Notes under the pieces: model-generated
What the model was told of the DNA's origin: nothing
The model's database searches: none
What the model saw: only the letters and a program-made list of their open reading frames with translations
From: Chloroflexota bacterium
GTDB lineage: Bacteria > Chloroflexota > UBA11872 > UBA12225
Assembly (NCBI GenBank): GCA_009693165.1
Contig: SHXX01000010.1
Location: 1-42,264 of the forward strand
Direction: 5' to 3'
DNA: 42,264 nucleotides
Program-made: the position numbers and the translations under genes
In this document: piece by piece, positions 3,235 to 39,047 of the stretch
How positions within the stretch are numbered: the first letter of the stretch is position 1
Layout: every line of letters starts with the position of its first letter

Positions 3235-3393
3235 CAAGCCAATCCCTTCGCGACAACCCACCTAATCATGGCGCCGCCAATGCCGAATGTCACGCGCCTC
3301 ACACTCCATCGATGTGCCCTCAGTCAAAGCGACATCCTCGCAAGACATGAGATTTGGGGAGCGGGTCGGTCGGAGACAACTCTCACGGTGATT

Positions 3394-9674: not shown

Positions 9675-9842
9675 GATGCGGTTCCTTCTCCGGACGCCTC
9701 GTGCGTCGCGCTCATCATTGCATGAAGCGGGTGGGGCGAGACGGCTTGGACGCCTCGACCGACGGAATGATTGCGGGTATTGGAGTACAGTGCGCCCCAA
9801 TCGCGTTAGGAACCTGTGGCGATCACTGATGGAGGCGAAACG

Positions 9843-11093
9843 ATGACGGAACTGACTCGGCTGGTGATGGACAGTCCTGACCGGAATGGCCTGGACACTG
9901 ACCGATTGCGCCGCGCCTTCGGGATTTTGGATGGATGGATCCAGGACAGGGTTGTGCCGGGCATCGGCGCCATCGTGGCTCGTGAAGGCCGTGTTGTCGC
10001 GGAGGCCTATTTCGGAACTGCCGATCGTGCGACCGGCCGGCCCGTTGATGATGAAACCATCTGGTCCGTCGCCTCGGTGACCAAACCATTCACCGCTGCG
10101 GTCGTAATGCGTGCGGTCGATGCCGGCTTGCTCTCAGTAGATGAGCCGGTCGCGACGCTCGTGCCGGAGCTTCTTTCGGGTACGGCGGAGGATCGGGGAG
10201 ACTTCGTTCATTTCCGAGAACACATTACGATCCGTCATTGCCTGAGCCATTCGTCGGGCCTTCCGGGGTTCAGTGCCGCGAACTTCGACCTGCGACGAGG
10301 TCACCGGCCGCTATCCGACTTCGTGCAGTCGTTCGCACGTGCGCCTCAGCTGTTCGAGCCAATGACGGCGCACCTGTATTCCAACTGCGGCATCTTGATG
10401 GCCGCCGAAGTTGCCGGGCGGGTGTTGGCGAACCGCGAGGATCCTGACAGGCCTGTCACGTCGGGTGTGGCGGCATTCCACGAGGGCTTTGCAAACCTCC
10501 TTACCGATCTTGGGACCACGTCAAGTTCAATCCTTCCTCCTCCAGAGTGGGCGGGGCGCACCGCGACGGTCGTTGACACCGGGCAAGAGGGCACTTCATG
10601 GGAAGCGGCGAACTCGGCCTACTACCGGAGCCTCGGCATTCCGTGGGGTGGCTTGTTCACTACTCCACGCGAACTCGTGACGTTCCTGGCAGTCTTCCGG
10701 CCCCGCCAAGGCGGGGCGACGTCCACGGGTCAACGCATCCTATCGGTGGCGGCGGTGCGTGAGATGGTCAGTGTGCAGGCATCGGGTCCGGACTTTGGTC
10801 GTGAGATTGCCCCTGAACTTCGGGACAGTGCCGCCGGGAGGTCACTTCGTTCGGCGGTTCCATGGGGTATCGGATGGGATGTCAAAGGCGGAAAGCCCGC
10901 TCATCCAACCGGTGACCTGACCTCGCCTGGAACCTGGAGCCACACCGGAGCGACGGGAACACTGGTTTGGTCCGATCCGGTTGCCGATGTGCAGGTCGTC
11001 CTGTTGACCAACCGCACCCTCGGAAGCGGATGGACGCGGGAACGACCCCGACAGGCACTGTTCAGCAATGCGGTAATGAGCGCCGTGCGTTAG
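9843..11093 (+). CDS. Serine hydrolase of the class C beta-lactamase/esterase family
   Basis: A penicillin-binding-protein-like serine hydrolase of 416 residues. The SxxK motif is S78-V-T-K81 (SVASVTKPF), the second motif is Y179-S-N181 (LYSNCG), and the third is the HTGATG segment near the C-terminus. No signal peptide or membrane helix is visible at the N-terminus, so it is probably cytoplasmic. Members of this family hydrolyse esters, amides or lactams, and the substrate cannot be read from sequence. The ATG at 9843 is preferred over the upstream GTG at 9816 because GGAGG sits seven bases before it. It converges on the DegT gene at 11230. Confidence 0.88.
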   Translation: MTELTRLVMDSPDRNGLDTDRLRRAFGILDGWIQDRVVPGIGAIVAREGRVVAEAYFGTADRATGRPVDDETIWSVASVTKPFTAAVVMRAVDAGLLSVDEPVATLVPELLSGTAEDRGDFVHFREHITIRHCLSHSSGLPGFSAANFDLRRGHRPLSDFVQSFARAPQLFEPMTAHLYSNCGILMAAEVAGRVLANREDPDRPVTSGVAAFHEGFANLLTDLGTTSSSILPPPEWAGRTATVVDTGQEGTSWEAANSAYYRSLGIPWGGLFTTPRELVTFLAVFRPRQGGATSTGQRILSVAAVREMVSVQASGPDFGREIAPELRDSAAGRSLRSAVPWGIGWDVKGGKPAHPTGDLTSPGTWSHTGATGTLVWSDPVADVQVVLLTNRTLGSGWTRERPRQALFSNAVMSAVR

Positions 11094-11229: not shown

Positions 11230-12492
11230 TCAGTGGGTAGAGGCCCACGCTTGGACCTTTGTGACCGCTTCGACAATCTCGTGCATGGCGCGCTGGTCGC
11301 CAAGGAGAACGGACTGCCCGAACCACACACCTTCCTCACGGCTCGCGCGGTCGGTGACCGGGAGGTTCTCCGCGTCGGGATTGTCCGGACAAGTCACTTG
11401 CCGTCCGCACTCTTTGGCGTGCGTTGCCCACTTGCGTCGTTCCGAAAGGACCGCGGGCATGCGGTGCAGGGGAGTTTCATATCCGGGCGAACACGGGATT
11501 CCTTCGGCGCGTAGCGCGGAAAGGAACCACGCACGGGGACGGCCTCCAAACGCGGGCGGGTCGTAACGCGACACGTAGAGGTGATGCGCGTGTCCGGTCA
11601 CCCGTTCGTCGCGTGCCTGCGGTGCGAACCCTTGAACCATTGACAATCCTTGGTCGAGTGTCCGTGCATTCTGTTCCCGCAGGTCAAATTGCGAAGGAAG
11701 GCGGTCGAGTTGCGACAGCAGAAGTGCGCCTTGGATCTCGGTCATCCGGTGATTGGATCCGGCAAGTTCGTGGTGGTACCAGGCCCCAGCCGGCATTCGT
11801 CCGCAATTGGCAAGGGACCACGCACGATCAGCGAGCGCTTCATCATCAGTGAGGAGGGCACCACCTTCGCCAGCATTGAGGTTCTTGGAAGACTGAAACG
11901 ACAAGGTGCCGATGTCGCCAATCGCTCCGATCGGCCGGCCCCGCCACGAGGCGCCAACGGCCTGGGCGGCATCTTCGATGAGCGCCAATCCATTGGATTG
12001 TGCAACCCTGATAAGCGCGTCCAGGTCGCATGGTTGCCCAGCGATGTGGACTGGCACGATTGCCTTGGTTCGCGCGGTGATCCTTCGGGCCGCATCGTCG
12101 GCATCCATGAGATACGTATCAGATCGAATGTCGGCAAAGACCGGGATTGCCCCGACACTGAGTACTGATGTGGCCGTCGCAACAAATGTGTATGCCGGGA
12201 TGATGACCTCGTCGAAAGGACCGACACCAACGGCCCGCAGCGCGACTTCAAGGGCGACGGTGCCGTTCGAGACGGCAATCGCGCGCCGGGCTTGGTGAAA
12301 CGAGGCAAACCGGGTCGTGAATGCGTCGACAAAGCCACTTCCCGGACGAGAACCCCATCGCCCGGACCGGAGCGCTGAGAGGACTGCCTCCTCATCCGTT
12401 CCGTCCCATACCGGCCAGGAAGGGAACGGTTCCGTCCGGACCGGGGCTCCCCCGTCGACAGCCAGTCTGATCTCGGTCGTCCGTGTCGTCAC
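11230..12492 (-). CDS. DegT/DnrJ/EryC1/StrS-family aminotransferase
   Basis: A PLP-dependent sugar aminotransferase-like protein. The opening LAVDGGAPVRTEPFPSWP, the block PAYTFVATATSVLSVGAIPVFAD, the cofactor-contacting IEDAAQA (Asp near residue 174) and SFQSSKNLNAGEGG (Lys near 203, the internal aldimine) are all family hallmarks. The frame extends to an ATG at 12561, but the first 23 residues from there do not resemble the family, so the GTG at 12492 is taken as start without a clear ribosome site. Many of these enzymes transfer amino groups to keto-sugars or inositols. The divergent neighbour at 12615 is an amidohydrolase, and no nucleotide-sugar genes are near, so a catabolic or inositol-type role is as likely as glycan synthesis. 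Confidence 0.87.
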   Translation of the reverse strand: MTTRTTEIRLAVDGGAPVRTEPFPSWPVWDGTDEEAVLSALRSGRWGSRPGSGFVDAFTTRFASFHQARRAIAVSNGTVALEVALRAVGVGPFDEVIIPAYTFVATATSVLSVGAIPVFADIRSDTYLMDADDAARRITARTKAIVPVHIAGQPCDLDALIRVAQSNGLALIEDAAQAVGASWRGRPIGAIGDIGTLSFQSSKNLNAGEGGALLTDDEALADRAWSLANCGRMPAGAWYHHELAGSNHRMTEIQGALLLSQLDRLPSQFDLREQNARTLDQGLSMVQGFAPQARDERVTGHAHHLYVSRYDPPAFGGRPRAWFLSALRAEGIPCSPGYETPLHRMPAVLSERRKWATHAKECGRQVTCPDNPDAENLPVTDRASREEGVWFGQSVLLGDQRAMHEIVEAVTKVQAWASTH

Positions 12493-12614
12493 GTCGGTTT
12501 CCAATCTGTCCAGATAGTTGCACCCGGGTGATATCCACCGCAACCGTGGGCCGAACGGCATCTTGCGGCCAGGGGAGGCCCTGACGGATATCCTGCGCCC
12601 GAGGAATCAAAATT

Positions 12615-13943
12615 ATGGAGAGCATGCGACCGGAGAACTCGCCGTCTCACCTGCGATCACAAGTCCGCGAAGAGGTGATGGGGATGTGGGCGCTTGACGC
12701 CCACGAGCACCTCCATTTTCCTGACCAGCACGCGGAACATGCGAACGACTGCTTCTACCTGACGAACCACTATCTGAATGCCGATCTTGTATCCGCCGGG
12801 ATGCCCGAGGAAACCATGCACCGGCTTGTCGATCGGTCGGTGCCGTTGGATCTCAGGTGGATGGCCTTTGAACCATTCTGGGAGGTGTCCCGAACCACGG
12901 GCTACGGGCAGGCGGTAGAGAGGGCGGTTCGAGACCTGTACGGTTTGCCTGGATTGACGTCCGCGACCTACCAGGAACTCTCAGTCCGCGTCGCCGAGAC
13001 TGCGGGCGAGGTCTCGTGGTACGAGCAAGTCCTTAAGCGGAATGGCAGGTTCATCGCCTCGCTCATGGATGTTGGCAGTACACGTGGAGACCGGCGCTAC
13101 TTCCTGCCGGTCATGAGAGTGGACCGGTTCATTGTGGCGAGCAAGGCTTCCGAGTTCGCCGACGCCGTCACCAACGGACCATCCGATGGTCGCGAAGCGC
13201 CGGCCAACATGGGAGCGTACCTGGACGCTCTCGACGACCTCTTGGCCGCATACCGTTCTGAAGGGATGATTGCGCTCAAGTGCGGGCTTGCGTACCGCCG
13301 CTCGCTTCGGTTCGAGACCGTCGAACGGCCAACTGCTTCGGCACTATATGAGCACGGGCTCCGGGGGAGCCTTGCGCCATCGGACGCAGCCGCCCTGCAG
13401 GATTTCCTGTTCCACGAAGTCTGTGACCGCGCGTCGGCACTTCACCTGCCTTACCAGGTGCACACCGGTCTGCAAGCGGGAAACTGGGGAGCCGACATCG
13501 CAATTACCAATCCTGCGTTCCTTACCAACACCCTCAAGGCGCACCCGGGCACGACGTTCGACCTCTTCCACGGTGGGTACCCATACGGCGGTGAACTGGC
13601 TTCACTTGCCAAGAACTTCCCAAACGCCTACATCAACGCGTGTTGGTTAGCCATCATTTCACCGACCGTATTGCGACGTTGCCTGCACGAATGGCTTGAC
13701 ACGGTCCCGCATAACAAGATCCAGGCATTCGGCGGCGACTACCGTATGCCCGAACTGGCGTATGCGCACGGCCAGATGGCGCGGGAAGCTGTCGCTGATG
13801 TTGTCGCGGATCGCGTGGAAGCGGGATGGCTTGCGGAAGCTGACGCGTCGGCGCTTGCAAACCGCCTTCTTCGCGACAACGGCCTCAAGTTGTTCGCAAT
13901 AGACGACGAATTCGTGACTTCGGCGACTGCACCGATTGAGTAG
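12615..13943 (+). CDS. Amidohydrolase-family (amidohydrolase 2) protein
   Basis: A metal-dependent TIM-barrel hydrolase or decarboxylase of 442 residues. The N-terminal metal motif reads LDAHEHLHFPD (HxH). The middle contains LPYQVHTGLQAG (third metal His) and FDLFHGGYPYGGEL (fourth His), and AFGGDYRMPE near the C-terminus supplies the Asp. This complete ligand set suggests an active enzyme. It is related to uronate-isomerase-like and ACMSD-like branches, but the substrate is not evident. It is transcribed away from the DegT gene (122-base gap to 12492), and the pair may share a promoter region. A gene of this type next to a mannonate dehydratase and GH4 enzyme hints at sugar-acid metabolism, which is an inference. 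Confidence 0.85.
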   Translation: MESMRPENSPSHLRSQVREEVMGMWALDAHEHLHFPDQHAEHANDCFYLTNHYLNADLVSAGMPEETMHRLVDRSVPLDLRWMAFEPFWEVSRTTGYGQAVERAVRDLYGLPGLTSATYQELSVRVAETAGEVSWYEQVLKRNGRFIASLMDVGSTRGDRRYFLPVMRVDRFIVASKASEFADAVTNGPSDGREAPANMGAYLDALDDLLAAYRSEGMIALKCGLAYRRSLRFETVERPTASALYEHGLRGSLAPSDAAALQDFLFHEVCDRASALHLPYQVHTGLQAGNWGADIAITNPAFLTNTLKAHPGTTFDLFHGGYPYGGELASLAKNFPNAYINACWLAIISPTVLRRCLHEWLDTVPHNKIQAFGGDYRMPELAYAHGQMAREAVADVVADRVEAGWLAEADASALANRLLRDNGLKLFAIDDEFVTSATAPIE

Positions 13944-14015: not shown

Positions 14016-14225
14016 TCAAGGTATCCGGCGCAAGGTGCGGACGACACCGGCGATCAGGATTGCCGGAAGGCCGATCACCAGTCCGGCCCCGCCAAGGACA
14101 GGGTCGATGATCTCCAGATAACGCAGGATCCCAACGCTCATGACAAGCGCAACGATGGCAATTGCAAGAAACTCGTCATCCACGAAGAGACCGACCAGTT
14201 CGGACCATATTCCTTTGATCAACAC
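14016..14225 (-). CDS. Small membrane protein coupled to the FTR1-like gene
   Basis: A 69-residue protein read from GTG 14225 (or TTG 14222), overlapping the stop codon of the upstream gene at 14219-14221. It shows two hydrophobic helices (FLAIAIVALVMSVGILRYL and LVIGLPAILIAGVV) joined by a short polar loop, and ends with VRTLRRIP, placing a positively charged tail in the cytoplasm. The overlap implies translational coupling, so the product likely works with the larger permease-like protein. No family could be named. The same frame is open further upstream (to 14342), but that part runs antisense-like through the neighbour's C-terminus in another frame and is not credible. Confidence 0.6.
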   Translation of the reverse strand: MLIKGIWSELVGLFVDDEFLAIAIVALVMSVGILRYLEIIDPVLGGAGLVIGLPAILIAGVVRTLRRIP

Positions 14226-14998
14226 TGTGCTCCGGCCGGCGCCGACTTCGCGTAGCGAGGCCGGTACAAGTTCACGAGTGTCGTACCGATTGCGAAAAAC
14301 ATCAGACCGAACCCGACGATACTTAGGTCGGCTCCTGGCCACTCTATCCCGAAACTTTCACCGGTCCAGAAGACACCGAATGCTGAAAGCATGATCCCCA
14401 CTGAGTACTTGAGCGTGTTTTCCGGGACTGTGGAAAGAGGCTTGTGGACGATCGCGCCGGTAGCAAGGACAAGCACGCATGCCGCGAGTGCGCCAAGGCT
14501 CGCTTCCCAGATCAGGTTTCCACCGTCCGCTGTCCGGGTAGACCCAAGCGCGATCACGATGAATATGACCTCAAGACCTTCGAGCAATACGGCCTTGAAG
14601 GCGGTCATGCCGGCGATCCATTCGAGCCGGGACAGTTTCTGACGTTCAAGAGCGTTCAGCGAGTTGGCTTCCTTCGTGAAGATGGCCTCCTCGTCATGCA
14701 TCGCGATCACCCCGATGGATCGCAGGATTGCCTTCCTGAGCCACCTCAGTCCGAATAGGAGCGTGAGAATGCCAATCGTGAATTGCAATACGTGGATCGG
14801 GACAAGTTCAAGGAGCGGTCCGAAGACGCCTCCGGCAACCCCAAGGAGTGCCAACGCAGCGGCTGTGCCGATGATTGCCGGGCGCCATCCACGCACGATT
14901 GAAACCGCAAGGATGATCGTGAACGCCTCGACGATTTCCACAATCGATGCAAGGAATGACGATCCCACTACCGAGACGAGGGTAGGCAGCTGGATCAT
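14219..14998 (-). CDS. Predicted membrane protein (COG4280-like, FTR1-type Glu motifs)
   Basis: A polytopic membrane protein of about 259 residues. It has roughly seven hydrophobic helices and two internally similar Glu-rich segments, SIVEIVEAFTIILAV near the N-terminus and LLEGLEVIFIVIAL in the middle. The second closely resembles the REGLE motif of FTR1 iron permeases. The block LLFGLRWLRKAILR matches COG4280 proteins as I remember them. Metal or cation transport is therefore plausible but unproven. The ATG at 14998 is chosen over the extended frame to 15058 because AGGAG lies six bases upstream. Downstream it overlaps a small two-helix gene. Upstream on the same strand, 173 bases away, is a chromate transporter gene. 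Confidence 0.72.
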   Translation of the reverse strand: MIQLPTLVSVVGSSFLASIVEIVEAFTIILAVSIVRGWRPAIIGTAAALALLGVAGGVFGPLLELVPIHVLQFTIGILTLLFGLRWLRKAILRSIGVIAMHDEEAIFTKEANSLNALERQKLSRLEWIAGMTAFKAVLLEGLEVIFIVIALGSTRTADGGNLIWEASLGALAACVLVLATGAIVHKPLSTVPENTLKYSVGIMLSAFGVFWTGESFGIEWPGADLSIVGFGLMFFAIGTTLVNLYRPRYAKSAPAGAQC

Positions 14999-15171
14999 CC
15001 GGTGCTCCTGCTTGTGAAAATCGGTGCCCATGCGACGCGACCCAGATTGCCGTCGCAAGGTGACCTAATCTATCCGCAAGTTGTCACCCGGGGTTCCGGG
15101 AGACGTTCACTCAGGTTGCAATCCGGTAGCGCCGTTTACGGCAGTTCTCGTCGGCCATGCCCCAAGTTCAC

Positions 15172-16494
15172 CTAGGCGGAACGGACGAAGGACCAGAGAA
15201 TGCCGGCGACTGCGCCGACTGGAGCCAAGATGTACGTAGGGAGCGAGTACCGACGCAGGGTCACAAAGGTCAGCACTGCAACCGTGACGGCGAACCAGTC
15301 AGGCCTGTCGCCAGTCGGCCAGATGGTGTGCGAAGTGGTGTAGAGGGACAGGTTCGCAATCGCCCCCACGACGGCGGACGTGATCCCCATGAGCGCTGCA
15401 CCAATCACGGGATTTCCAGACAACCGCTCGACAAATGGCGCGCCGGACAGCACGAAAAGGAAGCTTGGCAGGAAGGTGCACCAAGTGGTCAACAGTCCAC
15501 CCAGAAGTCCGGCCACCAGTGGTGAAAGCCCCGGTGCTTGACCGTACGCAGCGGCGAACCCCACGAACTGGGTCACCATTATCAGCGGACCCGGGGTTGA
15601 CTCGGCCAATCCTAGTCCCTGGACCATGCGAGACGCATCGACCCACTTGTAGTCATTGACTACCTCATCCGCTACATGCGACAGGACGGCATACGCACCG
15701 CCAAAGGTGAAGAATGAGACACGTGTGAAGAACAAAGCTATTCTCGTCAGGATGTCGTCAGGACCGCGCCAAAGGGCAATTCCTCCGACCGGGATGATCC
15801 ACAGGATGAGCGTTGTCCCAATAACCTTCCAGATTCGATCTTGGGCCTCGCGCATCGGTGTCACCACGAATGCGGGTTGATCAATTCTTGGCACGGTCCG
15901 GGCGTCAGGGAAGGGAAACCAGTTTGGGGTCAGCCAACCCGCGACCACTCCTGCGACGGCGGCGACGCCAATCACAAACGGGAAGGGCAGTCCCAGGAAC
16001 GCAGTCGCTGCGAAAGAAGTCGTTGCAATAGCCACCCGGAGTGGGCCGCGCAAGGTGCGGTAACCTACCCGAATGACGGCGTCGGCCACAATCCCGACAA
16101 CCATGGCCTGAAGGCCGGACAATGTTCCGGCGACGGCTACGATGTCACCGTGCGCAACGGCCATCCAACTCAGCAAAAGCATCGCGACCACCGATGGCCC
16201 TATGAAAGCCGTCCCGGCAATGATGCCTCCCGGTATCCCGTGTAGGGCCCATCCGAGGTAGATTGCGAGTTGCTGCGCCTCCGGACCCGGCAGGGCCATG
16301 CAGAATCCTAACGCCCTGCCAAACGTGAGCTCACCAACCCATTTGCGTCGCTCCACGAGTTCGCGGTGCATCAGGGCAATCTGGCCGGCCGGACCGCCAA
16401 AGTTGATGAACCCAAGAAGAATCCAGAAACGCACCGCTTCAGTGAAGTCGATTCCCGGTTGTGACGCTTCCCGGCGAGTGTTCACTCCTGACAT
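15172..16494 (-). CDS. chrA: Chromate transporter (long, two-domain ChrA)
   Basis: A CHR-family antiporter that exports chromate in characterised members. It has the duplicated architecture of long-chain ChrA. The N-terminal repeat carries FGGPAGQIALMHRELVERRKWV and LPGPEAQQLAIYLG. The C-terminal repeat carries FFTFGGAYAVLSHVADEVV with KWVDASRMVQGLGLAESTPGPL. About ten membrane helices are visible over 440 residues, the normal length. It starts at ATG 16494 on the minus strand and is followed 173 bases later by the FTR1-like gene, so the two may form a metal-ion locus. No ChrB regulator is present. Actual substrate specificity (chromate versus sulfate or another oxyanion) is not readable. Confidence 0.92.
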   Translation of the reverse strand: MSGVNTRREASQPGIDFTEAVRFWILLGFINFGGPAGQIALMHRELVERRKWVGELTFGRALGFCMALPGPEAQQLAIYLGWALHGIPGGIIAGTAFIGPSVVAMLLLSWMAVAHGDIVAVAGTLSGLQAMVVGIVADAVIRVGYRTLRGPLRVAIATTSFAATAFLGLPFPFVIGVAAVAGVVAGWLTPNWFPFPDARTVPRIDQPAFVVTPMREAQDRIWKVIGTTLILWIIPVGGIALWRGPDDILTRIALFFTRVSFFTFGGAYAVLSHVADEVVNDYKWVDASRMVQGLGLAESTPGPLIMVTQFVGFAAAYGQAPGLSPLVAGLLGGLLTTWCTFLPSFLFVLSGAPFVERLSGNPVIGAALMGITSAVVGAIANLSLYTTSHTIWPTGDRPDWFAVTVAVLTFVTLRRYSLPTYILAPVGAVAGILWSFVRSA

Positions 16495-16551: not shown

Positions 16552-17586
16552 TCAGGGACGGGTCGGCGGTATGGCCCGAGCCTGTCCCTGACGTGCGACC
16601 ATCCACGCGGGGTACTCCGCCGGCAGGGCACTTACGGTTTCGAGCGTTGCGAGGTCGTCGGCATCGAGAACCAGCTGCGCCGCGCCGACGTTGTCGTGCA
16701 ACTGTTCGATGGTCTTCACACCGATGATGACGCTTGTGACAGCCTTCTGGTGGAGCAACCATGCGAGGGCCACCTGTGCCACAGATGCGCCGTGCTTGGA
16801 GGCGATTGGGCGCATCGCGTCAACGCACGCATAGGCGCGCTCCTTGTCGACGATTGGAAAGTCGAACGTCGCGCGGCGTGAACCCTCAGGCATCTTTCGT
16901 TCAGCATCGAATTTTCCTGCAAGCAGGCCACCCGCAAGCGGGCTCCACACCATGAGGCCGACCGACTGGTCCTGAAGCATCGGCACGATTTCGCGTTCGA
17001 GGTCGCGTCCGGCAATCGTGTAGTAGGCCTGCACCGATGCGAACCGCGTCCAGTGACGTGATTCGGAAATGCCGATCGCCTTCATCACCTGCCACGCGGA
17101 CATGTTGCACACCCCGGTGTACCGCACCTTCCCGGATCTCACCAGATCATTCAGGGTCTCGAGAGTCTCCTCGATAGGGGTGCGCGAATCAACTCCGTGC
17201 AATTGATACAGGTCAATGTGGTCGAGTCCGAGCCGCCCGAGGCTTGCATCAACCTGGTTCATCAAGTGGTAACGTGAGTGGCCAAGCCCATTCGGATCAT
17301 TGGACATCAGGCCCGTCGCCTTGGTGGCGACGATGATTTCGTCACGAGGCAAACCGAGGTCACGAATTGCGTTGCCAAGCAGGGTTTCAGATTGCCCCAG
17401 CGAATAGACATTCGCCGTGTCCATGAAGGTGACCCCAGCATCGAACGCCGTCTTGGTGATGGCCGTAGCGGTCTGCTGGTCCACGCCTCCCATGACCTTG
17501 CACGGGCCCTCGCCGCCGAATGTCATCGTGCCAAGGCACAGTTCAGACACGTAGAGACCGGTCTTGCCGAGGATGCGGAACTTCAC
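16552..17586 (-). CDS. Aldo/keto reductase
   Basis: An NADPH-dependent (alpha/beta)8-barrel oxidoreductase of 344 residues. The catalytic tetrad is visible as D56, Y61 (DTANVYSLGQSE), K89 (VATKATG) and H130 (LYQLHGVD). SPLAGGLLAGKF and VTSVIIGVKTIEQL are typical of the YakC/IolS-like branch that reduces sugar aldehydes or ketones. Start ATG 17586 reads MKFRILGKTGLYVSELCLG. It stands alone: the ChrA start is 58 bases downstream on the same strand, and a perfect 13-bp inverted repeat lies 108 bases upstream. Confidence 0.92.
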   Translation of the reverse strand: MKFRILGKTGLYVSELCLGTMTFGGEGPCKVMGGVDQQTATAITKTAFDAGVTFMDTANVYSLGQSETLLGNAIRDLGLPRDEIIVATKATGLMSNDPNGLGHSRYHLMNQVDASLGRLGLDHIDLYQLHGVDSRTPIEETLETLNDLVRSGKVRYTGVCNMSAWQVMKAIGISESRHWTRFASVQAYYTIAGRDLEREIVPMLQDQSVGLMVWSPLAGGLLAGKFDAERKMPEGSRRATFDFPIVDKERAYACVDAMRPIASKHGASVAQVALAWLLHQKAVTSVIIGVKTIEQLHDNVGAAQLVLDADDLATLETVSALPAEYPAWMVARQGQARAIPPTRP

Positions 17587-18174: not shown

Positions 18175-18948
18175 TTATGCGAGGTTCCGAATTGTCTCTA
18201 TCCCATTCATCAAGGCTCGTTGATAGAGGTGGGCATCAAGTCCGTACGCGAACAGGCGAAATCCGCGGGTGTGGTAGTCCCGTGCCCACGTTTCGTCGGC
18301 CGCCATCACCCCGGCCACCTTGCCGTGTTTCCCGGCAACCCGGGCTATCTTTGCCACCGCGGCGAGGTAGTCGGGGTGGTTGAACTCACCGGGTATGCCC
18401 ATGAAATTGGTCAAGTCGAAGTGGCCAAGCCACAGGACGTCAACTCCCGGGACAGCGGCAATGTCATCGACGTTCGAGACACCCTCGGGCGTCTCGATCA
18501 TTGCAATCACTAGGGTGCGCGCATCGGCATCCGCGATCTTCTCGCGGGGGGCACCCGGACGGTAACCATCGTGGGCGATGCTAAACGCTGCGCCCCTTCG
18601 GCCAGCCGGTGGGTAGTGTGAATACGACACTATTTCGCGTGCCTGGGTAGCCGTTCCAACCATTGGAACCATTACCCCGTGCGCCCCGGCATCGAGGGCA
18701 CCGGCAACGAAGTGGTAGCCATGCTCTGGCACGCGCACGACCGGTGCGATGCCGACCCCGTCGCACGCGGCGCATTGCGCCTTGATTGCCTCAATCCCTG
18801 TGCCACTGTGTTCGGTATCGAAAATCAGGAAATCTGCACCGGCGGCCCGAGCCATGCGTGAGATTCCGGGAACGAAAAACTCTAAAACCATTGAACCGAC
18901 GGGCATCGTTGTCCCTGACGCGGAGTGGATGCGTTCGCGAAGCGTCAT
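18175..18948 (-). CDS. HpcH/HpaI-family aldolase
   Basis: A class II pyruvate-type aldolase of 257 residues that in characterised relatives cleaves 4-hydroxy-2-oxo acids to pyruvate (or tartronate semialdehyde) plus an aldehyde. Expected catalytic residues are present: H47 in FDTEHSG, R72 in VVRVPE, metal ligands E152 (MIETPEG) and D178 (LGHFDLTNFMG). The start codon overlaps the stop of the upstream amidohydrolase (ATGA at 18945-18948), so the two are translationally coupled. As the last gene of the Rieske/amidohydrolase operon it probably acts on the final hydroxy-oxo-acid intermediate; the exact substrate is inferred only. Confidence 0.9.
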   Translation of the reverse strand: MTLRERIHSASGTTMPVGSMVLEFFVPGISRMARAAGADFLIFDTEHSGTGIEAIKAQCAACDGVGIAPVVRVPEHGYHFVAGALDAGAHGVMVPMVGTATQAREIVSYSHYPPAGRRGAAFSIAHDGYRPGAPREKIADADARTLVIAMIETPEGVSNVDDIAAVPGVDVLWLGHFDLTNFMGIPGEFNHPDYLAAVAKIARVAGKHGKVAGVMAADETWARDYHTRGFRLFAYGLDAHLYQRALMNGIETIRNLA

Positions 18949-20102
18949 TGCGTCTCGCCGAGGCCGTACAGCGCGGCCGCATTGCCGTAGTAGATCTTGT
19001 GTTCAAGTTCGGGAGCAAGGCGGATCGGAAAGGCTTCATCGGGTTGGTCCGCGTCCCAGTGCGGGTAGTCACTTGCAAAGAGGATGTGGTCGGCAAGACT
19101 TCCCAGCTGTTCGATGAACTCGTCGAACTGGTGAGGTTGGTGGGGTTCCTCCATCGGTTGCGTCGTCGTCCAGATGTGACGGCGAACGTACTCAGACGGC
19201 GCCATCTGGAGGTGGGGGACCTCCTCGCGCAGAAGGGACCATGACGCATCCAGGCGCCACATCAGTGATGGAAGCCACCCTGCACCGTTCTCAACCGAAA
19301 TCACTTTCAGGTCTGGGAACCGGTCGAACACGCCCTCGGCAACCAGGCTGATGATATTTGCCTGCATCGCCTGGGCCGGCCCCACGTGGTCCTCCAGGTA
19401 AAAGGATGGCCAACCGGCGCCGGTGATTGGCTGTCCGTATGACCCGAAGGCGTGCGAAATCACCTTCAAGCCGTACTCCTGGCACGCTTCGTATATTGGC
19501 CAGTACTTTCGCCGTCCCATCGGTTCTTGCGGACGGCCAGTGAACTGCACTTGGACAAATCTCGGATCGCTGGCGCGACGGCGGATTTCCGCGACGGCGA
19601 GGTCCGGGGCCTCGATCGGGACAACAATTGACGCGCGAAGGCGTGGTTCCGGGTCAAGCCATTCCGCAACTTGCCAGTCGTTGCATGCCTTTGCCAGAGC
19701 GGCCCCGAACTCGTGGTTCTGCTGGCTCGCGGCAGGCGAAAGGGGGATCAGGATTCCGTATGCCACCCGGAATGGGTCGAGATACTGGGATCGAGTGAAC
19801 GCCACTTCAGATCCAGCGCGACGCCCCGACGGGGGACGCGCATCTTCCCGGTGATCCATGAAGCGAGGGTAGAAGCCACCGGCGGGTGACCGGCCACCGA
19901 AGGTCTCAAGATGCCGTTTCCATCGGTCTGAAAGGTAGGGCACCAAGGCGAGCACGTCACCGTGGAGTTCATTGTGCAGGTCGCAGTCGATCAGTGCAGG
20001 CCGGGTGGATGCTGCCGACCGGGACGCACCGAAAGTGAGCGGAACGGTGGACGGTGATGCGTCGGACGCTGTCTGCGGGGGACTCTGACGGGTCGCAACC
20101 AT
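18945..20102 (-). CDS. Amidohydrolase (ACMSD-like), operon copy B
   Basis: A 385-residue TIM-barrel hydrolase or decarboxylase. Family segments are IDCDLHNEL (the DxH variant of the N-terminal metal motif), KVISHAFGSYG (third-strand His), KVISVENGAGWLPSLMWRLD (Glu replacing the usual His) and LFASDYPHWD (catalytic Asp). Start ATG 20102 has GGAGG seven bases upstream. About 35 leading residues are low-complexity (Ser/Thr/Pro) and may be a flexible extension. It is clearly paralogous to the gene at 20226-21326 (shared DLHN/DVHN, DWQVAEWLD/DWQIAEWLD, ASDYPH). It overlaps the aldolase start by four bases and lies 123 bases after its paralog. Confidence 0.88.
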   Translation of the reverse strand: MVATRQSPPQTASDASPSTVPLTFGASRSAASTRPALIDCDLHNELHGDVLALVPYLSDRWKRHLETFGGRSPAGGFYPRFMDHREDARPPSGRRAGSEVAFTRSQYLDPFRVAYGILIPLSPAASQQNHEFGAALAKACNDWQVAEWLDPEPRLRASIVVPIEAPDLAVAEIRRRASDPRFVQVQFTGRPQEPMGRRKYWPIYEACQEYGLKVISHAFGSYGQPITGAGWPSFYLEDHVGPAQAMQANIISLVAEGVFDRFPDLKVISVENGAGWLPSLMWRLDASWSLLREEVPHLQMAPSEYVRRHIWTTTQPMEEPHQPHQFDEFIEQLGSLADHILFASDYPHWDADQPDEAFPIRLAPELEHKIYYGNAAALYGLGETQ

Positions 20103-20225
20103 TGGATGGCCTCCTCGGCAAGGGCGACGTGAGCGACGGTACTGACGATGCTATCCGACGCGGGCAATTTCACGGATGCTGGTGGAGCAAGAAACTTCCT
20201 AGACGTCGTGTGACCACGATGCGGT

Positions 20226-21326
20226 TTACGCCAACCTCCACAATGCCCGTGCATTTGCAGACCGAATCCGGGCAGCGTGACTTTCAGTGACGACCGACAG
20301 GACGCGGGAAGGCTCACTAGCGTGGCGATGAGGGTAGTCACTGGCATACACGAGCATCTCGTCCGACCCGATTTGTTCAATGGCTTGACGCAGATGGACG
20401 TCGGACGGCGGCGCATCGACCGGCTGGATCGTGAGCCTGATGTGGTCCCGGACGTACGCCGACGGCGCGCGCTTTACCCATGGGACAAGACGACGCAAGT
20501 TCCGCCATTCCTTGTCGAACCGCCAGAGGAACGGCCCCATCCACGTCACACCAGCTTCCAACAGGACCACCCGAAGATCTGGATGGAGGTCGAAGACACC
20601 TTCGGTCACCAGGCTGACAACTTGCGTCTGGAACACCTGCGCCATCCCGACGTGTTCCTCCAGGTAGTACGACGGCCACCCGGATGGCGTGGGAGGCGTT
20701 CCTGGAGCGCCACCAAAGTGGATGGCACCCACGAGGCTATTGCGGGAGATTGCCTCCCAAAGGGGTGCATGCAACCGGCTTCCGTACGGCACTGAGGACC
20801 TCACCGGCAGTCCTACCTGCACGAAGCCCGGGTGGCATCCGACCCGGTCAATCTCACGCGCCGCTTCGGCGGGCAGCTGCGTTGGCACGACGACCGTCGC
20901 CCGCAACCGTTCGTCCTTGTCCAGCCACTCCGCAATCTGCCAATCATTGACCGCGCGCGCCAGGGCAACGGCGGCATCAGGATTGTGCAAGCTGTCGATC
21001 GCATAGGTGCAGCAAAGGACCGCAAACGACAATCCATCGGCGTCGAGGACGTCCCGTTTGATGACTGACAGGTCAGATCCCGCCGGACGCCAGTTGGGAA
21101 GTTCGGAACCGGGGCGCTCGGTCGTCGGCGCCCAACGGGGATACGAGGTCTCAGGTGCCCCCTTGAAGAGGGTGTTGGTGATGTGTTCTCGCCAATGCTC
21201 TGAGAGATATGGGAAAAGAGCCTGCGTATCGGGGACGATGTTGTGCACGTCGCCGTCAATAAGTTCTGTGGCATTTCCGGCATGCGGTCGCGTGGCTATG
21301 CGAAGTGTGTCGGCAGTCGAGGTCAT
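20226..21326 (-). CDS. Amidohydrolase (ACMSD-like), operon copy A
   Basis: A 366-residue paralog of the neighbouring gene. It shows IDGDVHNIV (DxH motif), AVNDWQIAEWLDKDERLRATVVVP, VGAIHFGGAPG (metal His), VVLLEAGVTWMGPFLWRFD and LVYASDYPHRHA (catalytic Asp). Its start ATG at 21326 overlaps the stop of the Rieske gene (ATGA, 21323-21326), so the two are translationally coupled. Members of this DxH subgroup cleave C-C or C-N bonds in ring-derived or carboxylated substrates. Two diverged copies in one operon suggest two sequential steps or a hetero-oligomer. The substrate is unknown. Confidence 0.88.
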   Translation of the reverse strand: MTSTADTLRIATRPHAGNATELIDGDVHNIVPDTQALFPYLSEHWREHITNTLFKGAPETSYPRWAPTTERPGSELPNWRPAGSDLSVIKRDVLDADGLSFAVLCCTYAIDSLHNPDAAVALARAVNDWQIAEWLDKDERLRATVVVPTQLPAEAAREIDRVGCHPGFVQVGLPVRSSVPYGSRLHAPLWEAISRNSLVGAIHFGGAPGTPPTPSGWPSYYLEEHVGMAQVFQTQVVSLVTEGVFDLHPDLRVVLLEAGVTWMGPFLWRFDKEWRNLRRLVPWVKRAPSAYVRDHIRLTIQPVDAPPSDVHLRQAIEQIGSDEMLVYASDYPHRHASEPSRVLSVVTESHAARIRSANARALWRLA

Positions 21327-21880
21327 ATCGCGCCCCCGGAGTGAATGGACCCTTCGACTGGAATGAGTGTGATATCGATATTGCCTTCACTTCGTGCCCC
21401 GGGTGTCCCGAGAACGGTGGCGCTGATCGGAGTGCGTCTCAGGTCAACGACGATGTTTCCGTGTTCGACCGTCACTGGGAATGTGTGTGCAGTTGCGTTG
21501 GTTCGAGAGAGTCGGCCCAGCGTGGAACCATCTTGGTCGGACGGGTGATCCGGTTCAACGGTGACTTCATAGGTGCGAACGCGAAGCCGTTCCGGTTCGC
21601 ACACTGAACGGCCCGTCCGGAGGTCAAACTCCCAACCGTGATACATGCACGCGATGACTGTCCTATCAGTCCGGGTCCGGTAGTCACCCGGAACGTCGCC
21701 CTCGAGCCCCGACCAGAGACGGCCTTCACATAAGCGTGCACCCTGGTGCGGACACCAATTCAGAAGGGCGAAATATTCGCCCTCCACATGGAAGACGCCG
21801 ACCGAATGTCCGTCCAGGTCGACGACTTTCCGACCACCAGGGGGTATCTCCCCAACTTGTGCAACAACATGTCGTGCCAT
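21323..21880 (-). CDS. Rieske [2Fe-2S] ferredoxin-like protein
   Basis: A stand-alone Rieske iron-sulfur protein of 185 residues that would carry electrons to an oxygenase or hydroxylase. The cluster ligands are C-P-H in NWCPHQGARL and C-M-Y-H in IACMYHGWEF; spacing is longer than minimal because of a loop (GDVPGDYRTRTD). No catalytic oxygenase domain follows. The frame extends to 22009, but the ATG at 21880 (MARHVVAQVGEI) begins the domain. Its stop overlaps the next gene's start. The C-terminal 50 residues (from HTFPVTVEHG) are an extra segment with unassigned function. No matching oxygenase is nearby, so the electron partner is missing from the window. Confidence 0.88.
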   Translation of the reverse strand: MARHVVAQVGEIPPGGRKVVDLDGHSVGVFHVEGEYFALLNWCPHQGARLCEGRLWSGLEGDVPGDYRTRTDRTVIACMYHGWEFDLRTGRSVCEPERLRVRTYEVTVEPDHPSDQDGSTLGRLSRTNATAHTFPVTVEHGNIVVDLRRTPISATVLGTPGARSEGNIDITLIPVEGSIHSGGAI

Positions 21881-22002: not shown

Positions 22003-23352
22003 ATGACACGCAGCATCAACATCACGGTCATAGGCGCCGGTAGCGCGACATTTTCGCTTGGCTTGGTCAAAGACCTCTGCCTCACTGAGAACTTGAAGGG
22101 CAGCCATGTCACCTTCATGGACATCGACGCACAGCGCTTGCGTAATATCACCGGCTTGGCCGAACGTTACAGCCGGGAGCTGGGGGCCGACTTGCGTTTT
22201 ACGCAGACGACCGACCGCCAGGCGGCTCTCTCCGGGGCCGAGTTCATCATCAATACCGCTGATGTAAAGGGCCATCACCATGCCCGGCGCGTGCGGGAAC
22301 TGACCGAGTCGTTGGGGTACTACTACTACACGCCCTCTGCCCTTGGGCACTTCTACAACTTCCGCCTGATGCTTGACATCGCGCGTGACATTGAGCGCAT
22401 TTGCCCCGACGCGTGGCTCATCCAGAGCGGCAACCCGGTCTTTGATGGCACGACTCTCATGACCCGGCAAACCAATGCAAAGATCATCGGTCTGTGTCAC
22501 GGTCACTACGGCTACCTTGAAATGGCCAATGTGCTCGGTCTGGACCCGTCCCGGATTACTTGGGAGGCTCCGGGCGTCAACCACGCAATCTGGCTAACTA
22601 CGTTCATGCACGATGGTGAGGACGCATATCCGATCCTCGACAAATGGATTGAAGAACACGGACCCACGTACTGGGACACCCACGTGGCTACCCGCACGCA
22701 TGACATCCAGATGAGCCGGGGCGTGATCGACATGTACCGGATGCACGGACTGATGCCAATCGGAGACACCCCCCGGCTGGTAGGGTGGTGGTATCACACC
22801 GATCTGGCCACCAAGAAGAAGTGGTTTGGCCAGCCGTGGGGCGGTCCGGACACTGAAATCGCCCGCCCTGTCCACGTATCGGTGCTGAGCGAGCGCCTTG
22901 CCCAGATGGATGCGGCGATCAGGGACCCGGCGGTCAAGGTGACATTGGTATTCGGACAGACGCGCACTCGTGAGCAACAAGTGCCCATCATCAACGCATT
23001 GTCCAATGGCGTTGCGGGTTGCTTTCAGGTAAACATGCCCAACACCGGAGGCGTCGTCGCCGGCATCGATCACGACGTTGTCGTCGAGTCACAGGCGTGG
23101 ATTGACCGTGGTGGTGTGCATCCGATGCGACCCGCGCGTTCCTTGCCGGCATCTGTGATGCGCGACGAAGTGCTGCCGAAGGTCAGCGAGATGGAACGAG
23201 GCCTCGAGGCGTTCTTGATGGGCGACCGGCGCTTACTCCTGCTTGACATCCTTGCCGAACGCAAGACGACGAGCTACGACCAAGCCAAGATGCTGCTCGA
23301 GGCAGTCTTGGCGATGCCTGGTCACGAGGAGGTCGCCGCGCATTACCGGTGA
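22003..23352 (+). CDS. Glycoside hydrolase family 4 (alpha-glucuronidase-like)
   Basis: An NAD- and Mn-dependent GH4 glycosidase of 449 residues, which cleaves by a redox-elimination route. NAD-site motif GAGSATFS lies near residue 11, NPV in QSGNPVFDGTT at 144, the metal-site C165-H166-G-H (GLCHGH) and H194 in APGVNH. In GH4 the four residues at the metal Cys correlate with substrate, and the CHGx type is associated with alpha-glucuronidases (alternatively galacturonidases), rather than CHSV alpha-galactosidases. Start ATG 22003 is divergent from the Rieske operon (122-base gap). Together with mannonate dehydratase this suggests uronate release and use. Confidence 0.9.
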   Translation: MTRSINITVIGAGSATFSLGLVKDLCLTENLKGSHVTFMDIDAQRLRNITGLAERYSRELGADLRFTQTTDRQAALSGAEFIINTADVKGHHHARRVRELTESLGYYYYTPSALGHFYNFRLMLDIARDIERICPDAWLIQSGNPVFDGTTLMTRQTNAKIIGLCHGHYGYLEMANVLGLDPSRITWEAPGVNHAIWLTTFMHDGEDAYPILDKWIEEHGPTYWDTHVATRTHDIQMSRGVIDMYRMHGLMPIGDTPRLVGWWYHTDLATKKKWFGQPWGGPDTEIARPVHVSVLSERLAQMDAAIRDPAVKVTLVFGQTRTREQQVPIINALSNGVAGCFQVNMPNTGGVVAGIDHDVVVESQAWIDRGGVHPMRPARSLPASVMRDEVLPKVSEMERGLEAFLMGDRRLLLLDILAERKTTSYDQAKMLLEAVLAMPGHEEVAAHYR

Positions 23353-27109: not shown

Positions 27110-29701
27110 CTAGTCAATCGTTTCAATTAGGCCGGCGAGACGCGCACCCCATTCGACAAGGGGGTTGTGATCCGGCAGAGTGATCCCGAGTTCCCGGAGA
27201 ATTTCATGGGCTACCCAGCACACCCTTTCGGATCCGAATAGGCTGCGCGGGATGGTATCGATGATCTCCCTGACCCGCGTCTCGCTGGTGCGCCAGATGC
27301 CTCCGACTTGCTCATCGAGTGCGGTATCGATCGCCGAGTTAGTGACCCGTTCGAGGCCGTGCGCAACACAGCTCCGGTTCCGCAGCTGCTTGACCTTGTC
27401 GAGCCTCGTCGCGTGTACGTGGATCCGAAGGAGCCTGTCCGCCTCTGCGGCGTTACCCGCGTCGCGCTGTCGTTGCGCGCGCTTTTCCAAGTCGGCGAAC
27501 ACGTCCCCGCACAACGTCAACTGATCGGCATGCCTCAGCGTGGTTGCTTCGGGCGACTGCTTCGTGAAGATCCGGTAGTCGTCAAGGCTCTTGAAGATCC
27601 GACCGAACGTTCGGCCGGTTTCCGCGAGGAGCGCCTGTTCGACCAACCCACCGATCCGGGCAACGAAGTCGATCATCCTTCCCTGGCGCCACGCGAGGTC
27701 CGCTTGCCAGTAGACCTCGGCGAGCAGGCGCTCCTGATCTTCGGTCGACAGGATATCCCCGGCATGGTTGCGTGGGCGCATCTCGCGGAGTTCGTTTCGG
27801 AGTTCAGGAACGAGGTTACTCCCACGCCCGAATGTGCCACGTTCGAGGCAACGGATGGCGCCGTCGATATCAAAGTTGAGACGCTGGGCCATCGCTTCCA
27901 CCACATCCCGGACTACGCGGAGATCATCCCCGAAGTCGCGGATTGCAACGGCCGCTTCACTGAAGAGGCATTGGATGAGGAGTGTCCCCACACGCGACCT
28001 CGCAACCCTTCCATCCGCCTGCTTCTCCAAACCCGAGAGGTAGCTGCGGTAGTCTGTCGGATCGTCGTCCACTTGGTCGTGGCTTGGCACGTACGGCTTC
28101 GACGGATTGAGTACCTCACCCAGGAACAACACGAGCTCTGCGACACGCGTCTCGGCGATGACGACTGCATTGCGGTACTCATCGCGCTGGACAAGGCGTC
28201 TTAGTTGGCTCGTCTCGAGCTCCTGGAGGCGGTCGATCGATGTCCGAAGTTCGCCCAGGAGGGCAATCGTGGCGTCGCACTCGTCAGGGTCGCATGACGA
28301 CGCCGTCCAGTGGATTGGGTCCACGGCTTCAGACAGGCCCCATTCCCGCAGCGCCTGTCCGTGGGCGGTTAGAAGCGTGGCGATTTCGTTGGCGAGGGGC
28401 GCGCGCATTCGGCTGTGCTCGGCGCGTGTGCGTTCTGCCTGCGCATTCCTAACGGCATCCTTGAGATCGAACATGAACGACCTGAGATCGTCCCACACCG
28501 CCGAGGTCGCCGGTGTCTCCTTGAGCAATGACAAGAGGTCACCAAGGTGGCTGATCGGATCTGGAGAAGCCGGGAGACCAGTCCCAAGTGACGAGGCTAC
28601 CGTGACACCGCCCTCGAATGTAGGTGTATGAGACGTCGCCACTGCCAGCTGGTGGCGAGGGGAACTCTCTACGGACGGAGCAAGGCTTGCATCCGCGATC
28701 TTGTCAGTTGCGCCAACCGGTTCGCCCGCCATGACGGATACGGAGTGTGTTGCATCAACCACGATCGGAATTGAGCCGGCCACCCCAGGAGGTTCTAGGC
28801 CCTCTCCCAACGGTCGTCTTGCATCCTCAATCGAGGGCCGAACCTTGGCCAATGCCGGGGTTGCTGATACCACTTGGTCACTACGGGCCTGTGTGGACGC
28901 CGCCTTCGCGGCACGCTTTGCGCGCCGGTCCACGATCGGAACGACGGTGATCCGTGACTGGCGCAGAGCACGTGTGGACGGTGCGGTTCCGCGGGTCGGT
29001 ACGATAAATGGAGCCAGCTTTGGGGGGTCGACCGGATCCACCGATGCCTCCGGCGGTGCGGTCTGGGCTGCCTTGACGACGGATCGGCCGGCCCGCTTCG
29101 GCTTTGGCTCGGCGGTTTGCACGGGCATGACGATGCGGGATGGTTCATGCTTGACGGCCAGCTTGGCTAGTGATGGCCTTCGGACAATCACGGTACGGAT
29201 TGGCGTGTTCGCTGGCTGGTGGTCAATCGCCGGAGGCAGGGCAGTGGACTTTCGGGTCGGTTCGGGGACGCGTGTCCTCGATGTCTCCAAACCAACCTCG
29301 AGCACGAAGTCGATGCACGCATGGGCGGTGAGGGCTTCGGCCTCCACCGTCACGCCCGGCGCGAGCAGGTTCTGCCAAAGCACTCTCGCGACGGCGGGCC
29401 GGGTTCCGATCGCAGTCGCGTCCGTACCGATTCGCGCAGAGGCCGATTGCACTGACCCGTGCAGATCAATGTGGTCCGCGATCCGGTGCAGGAGATCCGG
29501 GTAGAGCGAAGCGACGCATTCGGTCAGGACTGGCAGTGACCGGACCCCGACTTGCTTCAGAGCCTTGTTGAGCGCCGGCGGTGTCGCATCTTCAAGCGGA
29601 TTGGCATATTGCCTACCGGCCGACACGCCGCGTAGCGCGTCAATAAGCAGTTGCCTCTGCGTACCAGGCAAGTCTGACATGTGTGTGCCGACTTGCATCA
29701 C
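27110..29701 (-). CDS. Large protein with C-terminal Csm6-like HEPN domain
   Basis: An 863-residue protein (from GTG 29701) with a distinct architecture. Residues 1-130 are helical and unrecognised. About 130-380 are Pro/Ala/Thr/Arg-rich and probably disordered. About 380-560 are helical or coiled-coil. The C-terminal third resembles the helical/HEPN part of Csm6-like proteins: FDIDGAIRCLE, AEVYWQADLAWRQGR, then LRNRSCVAHGLERV at about 774, which holds an R-x(4-6)-H RNase motif. No CARF (cyclic-oligonucleotide sensor) domain or cas gene is seen. An upstream ATG at 29765, with AGGAG nine bases before it, fits the frame only if the A7 tract at 29752-29758 were A6. A ribonuclease effector in stress or phage defence is the favoured, unproven role. 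An internal ATG at 29680 is another start. Confidence 0.7.
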   Translation of the reverse strand: MMQVGTHMSDLPGTQRQLLIDALRGVSAGRQYANPLEDATPPALNKALKQVGVRSLPVLTECVASLYPDLLHRIADHIDLHGSVQSASARIGTDATAIGTRPAVARVLWQNLLAPGVTVEAEALTAHACIDFVLEVGLETSRTRVPEPTRKSTALPPAIDHQPANTPIRTVIVRRPSLAKLAVKHEPSRIVMPVQTAEPKPKRAGRSVVKAAQTAPPEASVDPVDPPKLAPFIVPTRGTAPSTRALRQSRITVVPIVDRRAKRAAKAASTQARSDQVVSATPALAKVRPSIEDARRPLGEGLEPPGVAGSIPIVVDATHSVSVMAGEPVGATDKIADASLAPSVESSPRHQLAVATSHTPTFEGGVTVASSLGTGLPASPDPISHLGDLLSLLKETPATSAVWDDLRSFMFDLKDAVRNAQAERTRAEHSRMRAPLANEIATLLTAHGQALREWGLSEAVDPIHWTASSCDPDECDATIALLGELRTSIDRLQELETSQLRRLVQRDEYRNAVVIAETRVAELVLFLGEVLNPSKPYVPSHDQVDDDPTDYRSYLSGLEKQADGRVARSRVGTLLIQCLFSEAAVAIRDFGDDLRVVRDVVEAMAQRLNFDIDGAIRCLERGTFGRGSNLVPELRNELREMRPRNHAGDILSTEDQERLLAEVYWQADLAWRQGRMIDFVARIGGLVEQALLAETGRTFGRIFKSLDDYRIFTKQSPEATTLRHADQLTLCGDVFADLEKRAQRQRDAGNAAEADRLLRIHVHATRLDKVKQLRNRSCVAHGLERVTNSAIDTALDEQVGGIWRTSETRVREIIDTIPRSLFGSERVCWVAHEILRELGITLPDHNPLVEWGARLAGLIETID

Positions 29702-29784: not shown

Positions 29785-29806
29785 TGATAGTTGTTAAATA
29801 CTATCA
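29785..29806. promoter_or_regulatory. 7-bp inverted repeat between divergent genes
   Basis: TGATAGT (29785-29791) and ACTATCA (29800-29806) flank an AT-rich 8-base spacer, in an unusually AT-rich patch. It lies 20 bases upstream of the ATG at 29765 for the HEPN gene and 87 bases before the fucosidase start. It looks like a dimeric repressor operator or a promoter overlapping one. Confidence 0.45.
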
Positions 29807-29892
29807 GGGATGCCAGAATCCCGCACGGTGCGCAGTTGACGAACTCGGAATCGGGCGTATCCTGGTCGTGCCTGAGGGGGCGGAACGCACGC

Positions 29893-32995: not shown

Positions 32996-33084
32996 TGTGT
33001 GGCCCTCGTTGAGTTGGGATTCAGATTGAGCGCACGTGCCATCTCCGGTCTGGCCACGGGCTCGTGAGATGGCGGGGGCCCTGC

Positions 33085-34984
<1,900 letters not shown>

Positions 34985-38678: not shown

Positions 38679-39047
38679 TTAGGCACACTGCGTCGCGCAT
38701 GGGTATGACCTTGCCCATTGACGGGATCATCAGAAGCAGGCCGTGGCAATTGGCTACTGGCCTAGGTATCGGTACAACCCCACTCGCGCCGTGCGTGGCG
38801 AGAACCCGTTCACGCTCGATTCTCGTCCACCAACCCTTGCTCTTGCCGAATTCCTGGCGACCGAGGACCGTTTCACGACCATGCTCGAGACAACGACTTC
38901 AACGCGATCACCGATAGTCAGTGCGGACGGCGCCGCCTCAGCACTGCAAACTCCGCACGGGGAACTGCTGGAACTGGTTTCCCATTACGTCGCGGCGCGG
39001 TGGCACCTGTATCCACACCTCGCCAAGGAATGGCGCCTCCCCTCAAC

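Follow-up and report, generated by a model that had tools for sequence, protein, structure and literature searches.

What does a lone Rieske ferredoxin serve when the genes next to it look like two hydrolases and an aldolase? The question is raised by a four-gene operon in a 42,264-nucleotide stretch of a Chloroflexota genome (contig SHXX01000010.1; the whole stretch is called the window below), the source assembly of which measures 2.22 Mb and is 82% complete. In the first-pass annotation the operon was described as a compact pathway for an aromatic or carboxylated compound, with no oxygenase present and with the partner of the Rieske protein encoded elsewhere. Comparison with characterized proteins points to a different answer. 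The Rieske protein and the two amidohydrolase-like proteins, here AH1 and AH2, very probably form a heteromeric dinuclear oxygenase, amidohydrolase-related and of the same kind as AibH1H2/AibG, and this oxygenase probably acts in a catabolic route.

Two amidohydrolase-like proteins and their metal ligands

The four genes lie on the minus strand between 18175 and 21880, as first annotated, and family matches confirm their nature. The first (21323..21880) encodes an AibG-like Rieske [2Fe-2S] ferredoxin of 185 residues, the putative electron donor, which matches PF00355 at 58.1 bits and carries the cluster motif CPH-x32-CMYH (CxH-x32-CxxH in general form). Its start is the ATG at 21880, shared by the copies of the same genus. 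It is followed by AH1 (20226..21326), an AibH1-like subunit predicted to be mononuclear and non-catalytic, by AH2 (18945..20102), an AibH2-like subunit with a predicted catalytic dinuclear site (Mn/Fe or Fe2), and by an HpcH/HpaI-type class II aldolase (18175..18948); the two subunit assignments draw on structure matches, ligand patterns and a tree. The stop of the Rieske gene overlaps the start of AH1 in a 4-base ATGA (21323-21326), the same overlap links AH2 to the aldolase (18945-18948), and 123 bases separate AH1 from AH2. Both couplings had been noticed before, and both are kept, together with the gene order, throughout the genus. In its three remaining genomes the copies are 73-85% (Rieske), 89-92% (AH1), 94-95% (AH2) and 86-92% (aldolase) identical to those of the window, and an assembly gap interrupts AH1 in one copy (L035, on the same contig as L055). 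Because order and overlaps recur in every genome of the genus, the arrangement is real and far from chance. The Rieske gene and AH1, overlapping on one strand, are predicted to share a transcription unit. A promoter and terminator scan was uninformative (1 and 5 sites, with 1.3 and 3.6 expected), and the window contains no tRNA and no Rfam match.

Both paralogs have the amidohydrolase fold and the DxH motif that were first ascribed to them, matching PF04909 at 98.4 bits (AH1, DGDVH) and 139.4 bits (AH2, DCDLH). Among solved structures, AH2 matches AibH2 best (6m1w chain B; E 7e-85, 43.5% identity), and AH1 the single-gene oxygenase 8sm7 (E 9.9e-78) and AibH1 (6m1w chain A; E 2.2e-73). In Rhodococcus wratislaviensis, 2-aminoisobutyrate is hydroxylated by a three-component monooxygenase with AibH1H2 as its terminal oxygenase, and AibH1, AibH2, the Rieske ferredoxin AibG and the flavoprotein AibF are all required for activity (PMC7782822). 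The cofactor was later shown to be Mn/Fe (PMC10401708). Single-gene members were found through PF04909 genes beside small Rieske genes, and these relatives bind redox-active dinuclear sites (PMC10811679). The apparent Rieske gene without an oxygenase is therefore the very pattern by which the single-gene oxygenases were found, and it leads to a rereading of AH1 and AH2 as the missing oxygenase.

The metal ligands follow the same division. In AH2, residues D41, H43, H217, E271, D345 and H348 correspond to the AibH2 ligands D25, H27, H211, E265, D337 and H340 and are invariant in a 6-row family alignment, and D350 corresponds to the second-sphere acid D342. Loss of this Asp342 lowers the activity of AibH2 (PMC10401708). 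AH1 displays the AibH1 pattern (D26, H28, H203, E257, D330, H333, H335), in which a His replaces the second-sphere Asp. Among the homologues in the collected loci that reach 280 residues, the signature DHHEDH+D is present in 45 of 47 AH2 sequences, the other two being gapped at those positions, and DHHEDH+H in 60 of 72 AH1 sequences; in none of these 72 is the last position acidic. Of the 25 AH2 sequences from Chloroflexota, 24 have intact ligands and one is gapped there. The structure predicted for AH2 from six close rows is of low quality (pLDDT 45.5); it was not used and carries no weight either way.

These comparisons also bear on the reading closest to the first-pass annotation, according to which AH1 and AH2 are ordinary metal hydrolases or decarboxylases (comparable to ACMSD, gamma-resorcylate decarboxylase or LigW) that work in a pathway for aromatic acids, with the Rieske protein serving a distant ring-hydroxylating oxygenase. 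Membership of PF04909 and the DxH motif of both proteins agree with it, and decarboxylases occur among the weaker matches. However, AibH1/AibH2-type chains score 175-289 bits and family decarboxylases at most 55, which places the latter tens of orders of magnitude behind; AH2 has the second-metal ligand and the accompanying Asp; and a Rieske gene accompanies the pair across genera and phyla. The distant oxygenase was sought with PF00848, the ring-hydroxylating alpha subunit, and was rejected as a candidate: the 82% complete genome holds no match, and the same search was positive in 4 of 14 control genomes. Such a hydrolase pathway is thus highly improbable. Nothing points to an aromatic substrate, and the known heteromeric relative, AibH1H2, hydroxylates an aliphatic methyl group; what remains of the proposed breakdown pathway is an electron carrier in a probably catabolic operon. 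As AH1 and AH2 resemble AibH1 and AibH2 most closely, carry their ligand signatures and group with them in the tree described below, the statement that no oxygenase is present has to be abandoned. The genome encodes four further PF04909 proteins, none of which matches the oxygenase profile, so that the operon is, by profile comparison, the only such oxygenase in the assembled part. A riboflavin-catabolism system was also considered as an analogue and set aside, its Rieske protein being described as serving a classical dioxygenase (PMC12746152).

The Rieske-AH1-AH2 trio in other genomes

Searches with an AH1 alignment found 72 loci: 25 in Chloroflexota, of which six (L050-L055) are contigs from genomes G003-G005 and G008-G010, 7 in Actinomycetota, and 40 in Poribacteria that are closely related to one another. 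The loci were drawn by two AH1 peptide patterns (WRFDKEW and LCCTY..D), and AibH1-like proteins without these are missed. AH2 lies within 500 bases of AH1 in 23/25 Chloroflexota, 7/7 Actinomycetota and 2/40 Poribacteria loci, and the complete trio, with a Rieske gene within 3 kb, is found in 20/25, 6/7 and 0/40, respectively. Three of the five Chloroflexota exceptions are on contigs shorter than 4.2 kb; no Rieske gene is seen in the remaining two (L056, L119), which are long. The order is mostly AH1-AH2-Rieske in Chloroflexota, as in aibH1H2G, with Rieske-AH1-AH2 in the family of the window and Rieske-AH2-AH1 in several Actinomycetota. The loop CxH-x(31-33)-CxxH is present in 28 of 29 Rieske matches in these neighbourhoods, the last being truncated; aligned to the dioxygenase ferredoxin 2qpz, the window protein spans about 16 residues more. 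In one locus of another genus in the same family (L052), SBP_bac_5/OppBC-type transporter genes adjoin the trio, clustered homologues of at least one of them occur in L054, L057, L058 and L119, and GntR/FCD regulators adjoin the trio in L057 and L119. Transporters and regulators as neighbours suggest catabolism.

In Poribacteria the AH1 homologues (L073-L117) mostly lie behind a GMC oxidoreductase (31/40 loci) and a PALP-type PLP enzyme (31/40), as at L112:5317-6873 and L084:6801-7778, with no Rieske gene inside 3 kb, and some of these loci have AH2 further downstream.

A maximum-likelihood tree was built from 67 proteins, comprising 56 within-group picks, six named paralogues of related genomes and five PDB chains. 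The two window proteins were fixed among the picks and the rest were drawn at random with a fixed seed, from sequences with an intact signature, which excludes degenerate AH1s. AH1 groups with AibH1 (support 100/99) and AH2 with AibH2 (100/99), with the single-gene oxygenases apart in a group of their own (100/97). After removal of the actinobacterial rows, the corresponding values are 95/90, 100/99 and 99/96.

This placement weighs on a second alternative, in which AH2 acts by itself as a homomeric, SfbO-like dinuclear oxygenase and AH1 is merely an adjoining, independent enzyme. Single-gene relatives do exist, and related genomes carry them with Rieske genes of their own (L039-L043), the loop CxH-x(31-33)-CxxH being present in all five Rieske proteins that adjoin single amidohydrolase-fold proteins there; furthermore, most Poribacteria loci have their AH1 homologue at a distance from AH2. 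SfbO and the other single-gene oxygenases (8SM6-8SM9) have the six ligands, the second-sphere Asp (ligands compared in 8SM6, 8SM7 and 8SM9) and the linked Rieske gene in common with AH2, but fall outside both window clades. Against this alternative, each window subunit groups with its own Aib counterpart, and AH1 and AH2 are neighbours in nearly all Chloroflexota and in every Actinomycetota locus. In addition, AibH2 without AibH1 is reported to have yielded no product (PMC7782822). An independently acting AH2 is accordingly improbable. An SfbO-like anion pocket in AH2 was not retained: H239 and P242 stand at the positions of the anion-binding R232 and R235, a correspondence that is approximate, four of the five named SfbO residues fitting the inferred numbering. 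In one related locus (L039, G007:C36), three amidohydrolase-fold oxygenase homologues are clustered with one Rieske gene, and the tree places two of these homologues among the single-gene oxygenases.

PtmU3 (6OMP), an enzyme of natural-product biosynthesis (platensimycin), is likewise a dinuclear oxygenase with the amidohydrolase fold, but distant in sequence, matching AH2 at E 9.4e-19. The closest known counterpart of the trio remains the heterotetrameric monooxygenase AibH1H2 with AibG and AibF, from R. wratislaviensis C31-06 (6M1W, 6M2I, 8FUL-8FUO), which likewise has two amidohydrolase-fold subunits, the same split of ligand signatures, adjacent genes and a linked small Rieske gene. In the open-access literature searched, AibH1H2 is the only heteromeric enzyme of this kind described, and no paper linked Poribacteria or Chloroflexi with an amidohydrolase and a Rieske protein. 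The window differs from the Aib system in that the Rieske gene comes first rather than third and an aldolase is attached.

Several observations weigh against assigning the operon to the AibH1H2 kind with its aldolase as a working part. The first is the Poribacteria pattern, in which no AH1 homologue has an adjacent Rieske gene and AH2 is rarely close. The second concerns AH1 itself: the branch leading to AibH1 is very long, and AH1 is 40.4% identical to the single-gene oxygenase 8sm7 and 36.3% to AibH1. Because of this long branch and the slightly greater identity to 8sm7, the join between AH1 and AibH1 appears weaker than that between AH2 and AibH2. Third, 7 of the 25 Chloroflexota AH1s deviate at the mononuclear site, for instance with Gln at the equivalent of H217; at least one of the seven is explained by an assembly gap. 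Such a loss of ligands, some of it apparently assembly error, fits a partner better than a catalytic subunit. Fourth, no PF00175 match, as expected for an AibF-like reductase, is found in the genome (82% complete), and AibF is essential in Rhodococcus; ten PF07992 reductases are present, none assignable as the reductase of the Rieske protein. The earlier suggestion of a partner encoded elsewhere can thus be kept for the reductase, no AibF-like gene being near the operon, but not for the oxygenase, for which AH1 and AH2 are the candidates. Finally, other genera have the trio without an aldolase, and this enzyme may serve a different branch.

A possible route through the aldolase

How might such an oxygenase work together with an aldolase? 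By analogy with AibH1H2, the dinuclear Mn/Fe or Fe2 site predicted in AH2 would activate O2 and hydroxylate an unactivated aliphatic C-H bond, and AH1, as a single-metal partner without catalytic function, would be required for the complex, presumably a heterotetramer. Electrons would pass from NAD(P)H to a reductase encoded away from the operon, then to the Rieske protein and on to the AH2 site. The hydroxylation product would be processed further in a catabolic route, and in the genus of the window the aldolase would cleave a hydroxylated 2-oxo acid formed downstream, releasing an aldehyde together with pyruvate or a similar 2-oxo acid. A small polar substrate, sugar-acid-like or other, is a guess.

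The aldolase matches PF03328 at 121 bits (cut-off 25), and its H47, R72, E152 and D178 align with H50, R75, E153 and D179 of GarL (1dxe), which we take to be the catalytic positions. It shares the family and these His, Arg, Glu and Asp positions with the class II aldolases HpaI and GarL, but scores well below the curated cut-offs of both (134.6 bits for HpaI, cut-off 368.8; 129.2 for GarL, cut-off 406.75), and neither name was assigned. Matches at E 1e-40 occur in 5 of the 41 genomes of the class: all four of the genus, at 87-100% identity, and G003, at 44% and on another contig. The orthologue (at least 87%) is confined to the genus among these genomes and is missing beside the trio in G004 and G005, the G003 contig ending at that point; the aldolase is therefore a genus-level addition to the trio. 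The possibility that the four genes recur apart from one another, which would speak against a joint pathway, thus applies to the aldolase only, the Rieske-AH1-AH2 set recurring without it.

This distribution is compatible with a third alternative, which concerns the aldolase step only: the oxygenase is real, but the aldolase is part of a sugar-acid pathway encoded nearby, to which the uronate-isomerase-like, UxuA-like and GH4 genes described below would also contribute, and leaves the product of the oxygenase untouched. It is suggested by the lack of an aldolase beside the trio in G004 and G005 and of an orthologue outside the genus, and by the nearest solved relatives of the aldolase, which act on sugar acids or 4-hydroxy-2-oxo acids. 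The 4-base overlap of AH2 and the aldolase in all four genomes of the genus stands against it. A separate role of this sort is a serious possibility, if somewhat short of an even chance. That the aldolase acts on a product of the oxygenase as proposed is doubtful and is put forward as a guess.

Neighbouring genes

Genes of the Aib catabolic cluster (aibD1, aibE, aibC and aibT, for dehydrogenases, an SHMT-like decarboxylase and a permease) are not found beside the operon. Its immediate neighbours are instead the aldolase, an aldo/keto reductase, a GH4 gene and transporter-like and uronate-isomerase-like genes. The aldo/keto reductase (16552..17586, minus strand; PF00248), the next recognised gene downstream of the aldolase, has a homologue in that place in 3/3 other genomes of the genus and might reduce the aldehyde released by aldol cleavage. 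On the other side, and divergently oriented, lies a GH4-family glycosidase (22003..23352, plus strand; PF02056/PF11975; alpha-glucosidase 1obb, E 2.6e-114), which occupies the same place in 3/3 other genomes, one copy being cut by a contig end. An FTR1-like membrane protein and a ChrA-like transporter, named by eye, lie at 14016-16494 (minus strand), between the trio and the uronate-isomerase-like gene, and in L052 a ChrA-like homologue is directly 3' of AH2.

The uronate-isomerase-like protein (12615..13943, plus strand) is recognised from its predicted structure (pLDDT 74.7), which is nearest to 4i6v (Z 30.0), 2qpx (Z 28.9) and the uronate isomerase BH0493 (Z 25.7). Next to it is a DegT/StrS-type aminotransferase (11230..12561, minus strand; PF01041), the nearest solved relatives of which are AHBA synthase and 2-deoxy-scyllo-inosose aminotransferase. 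Homologues of both proteins adjoin the trio in the other genus of the family (L052/L037, L054/L038), and L052 also carries homologues of the beta-lactamase-fold (9816-11093) and UxuA-like (8634-9800) proteins of the window. An alpha-L-fucosidase is encoded at 29791-31164, and an aldehyde dehydrogenase at 1645-3261, 15 kb from the operon. The evidence leans towards sugar-acid or amino-polyol chemistry rather than aromatics, on account of the uronate-isomerase-like, GH4 and fucosidase neighbours; a neighbourhood common to the family may also reflect slow rearrangement.

Elsewhere in the window, one open frame at 32171-33553 (minus strand) encodes both an enolase-superfamily C-terminal domain (MR_MLE_C) and a PhzF-like domain, a putative fusion or frame run-on, and another at 27110-29701 (minus strand) is 863 residues long. 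IS-type transposase frames lie near the two ends of the window (3638-4516 and 37912-38730, minus strand), both resembling one frame in L034.

As far as sequence can tell, the trio most likely adds a member to the already known AibH1H2 kind; the points of interest are the coupling to an aldolase, which makes the window an aldolase-linked case of such a system, and the division into H1 and H2 across three phyla. The data indicate that the two-subunit H1/H2 form is common to at least three phyla (Chloroflexota, Poribacteria and Actinomycetota), and the residue two places past the last metal-ligand His, Asp or His, offers a rule by which the catalytic subunit can be told from its partner. Proteins annotated as amidohydrolases beside a lone Rieske protein are easily taken for hydrolases whose oxygenase is missing; in this operon they most likely are that oxygenase themselves. 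The fuller proposal, that a heteromeric (possibly Mn/Fe) oxygenase with an H1/H2 duplication common to three phyla hydroxylates a sugar-acid or amino-polyol type compound and so sets up its retro-aldol cleavage, is rather unlikely as a whole. If true, it would constitute a previously undescribed O2-dependent route in Chloroflexota, with the aldolase supplied from the same transcript.

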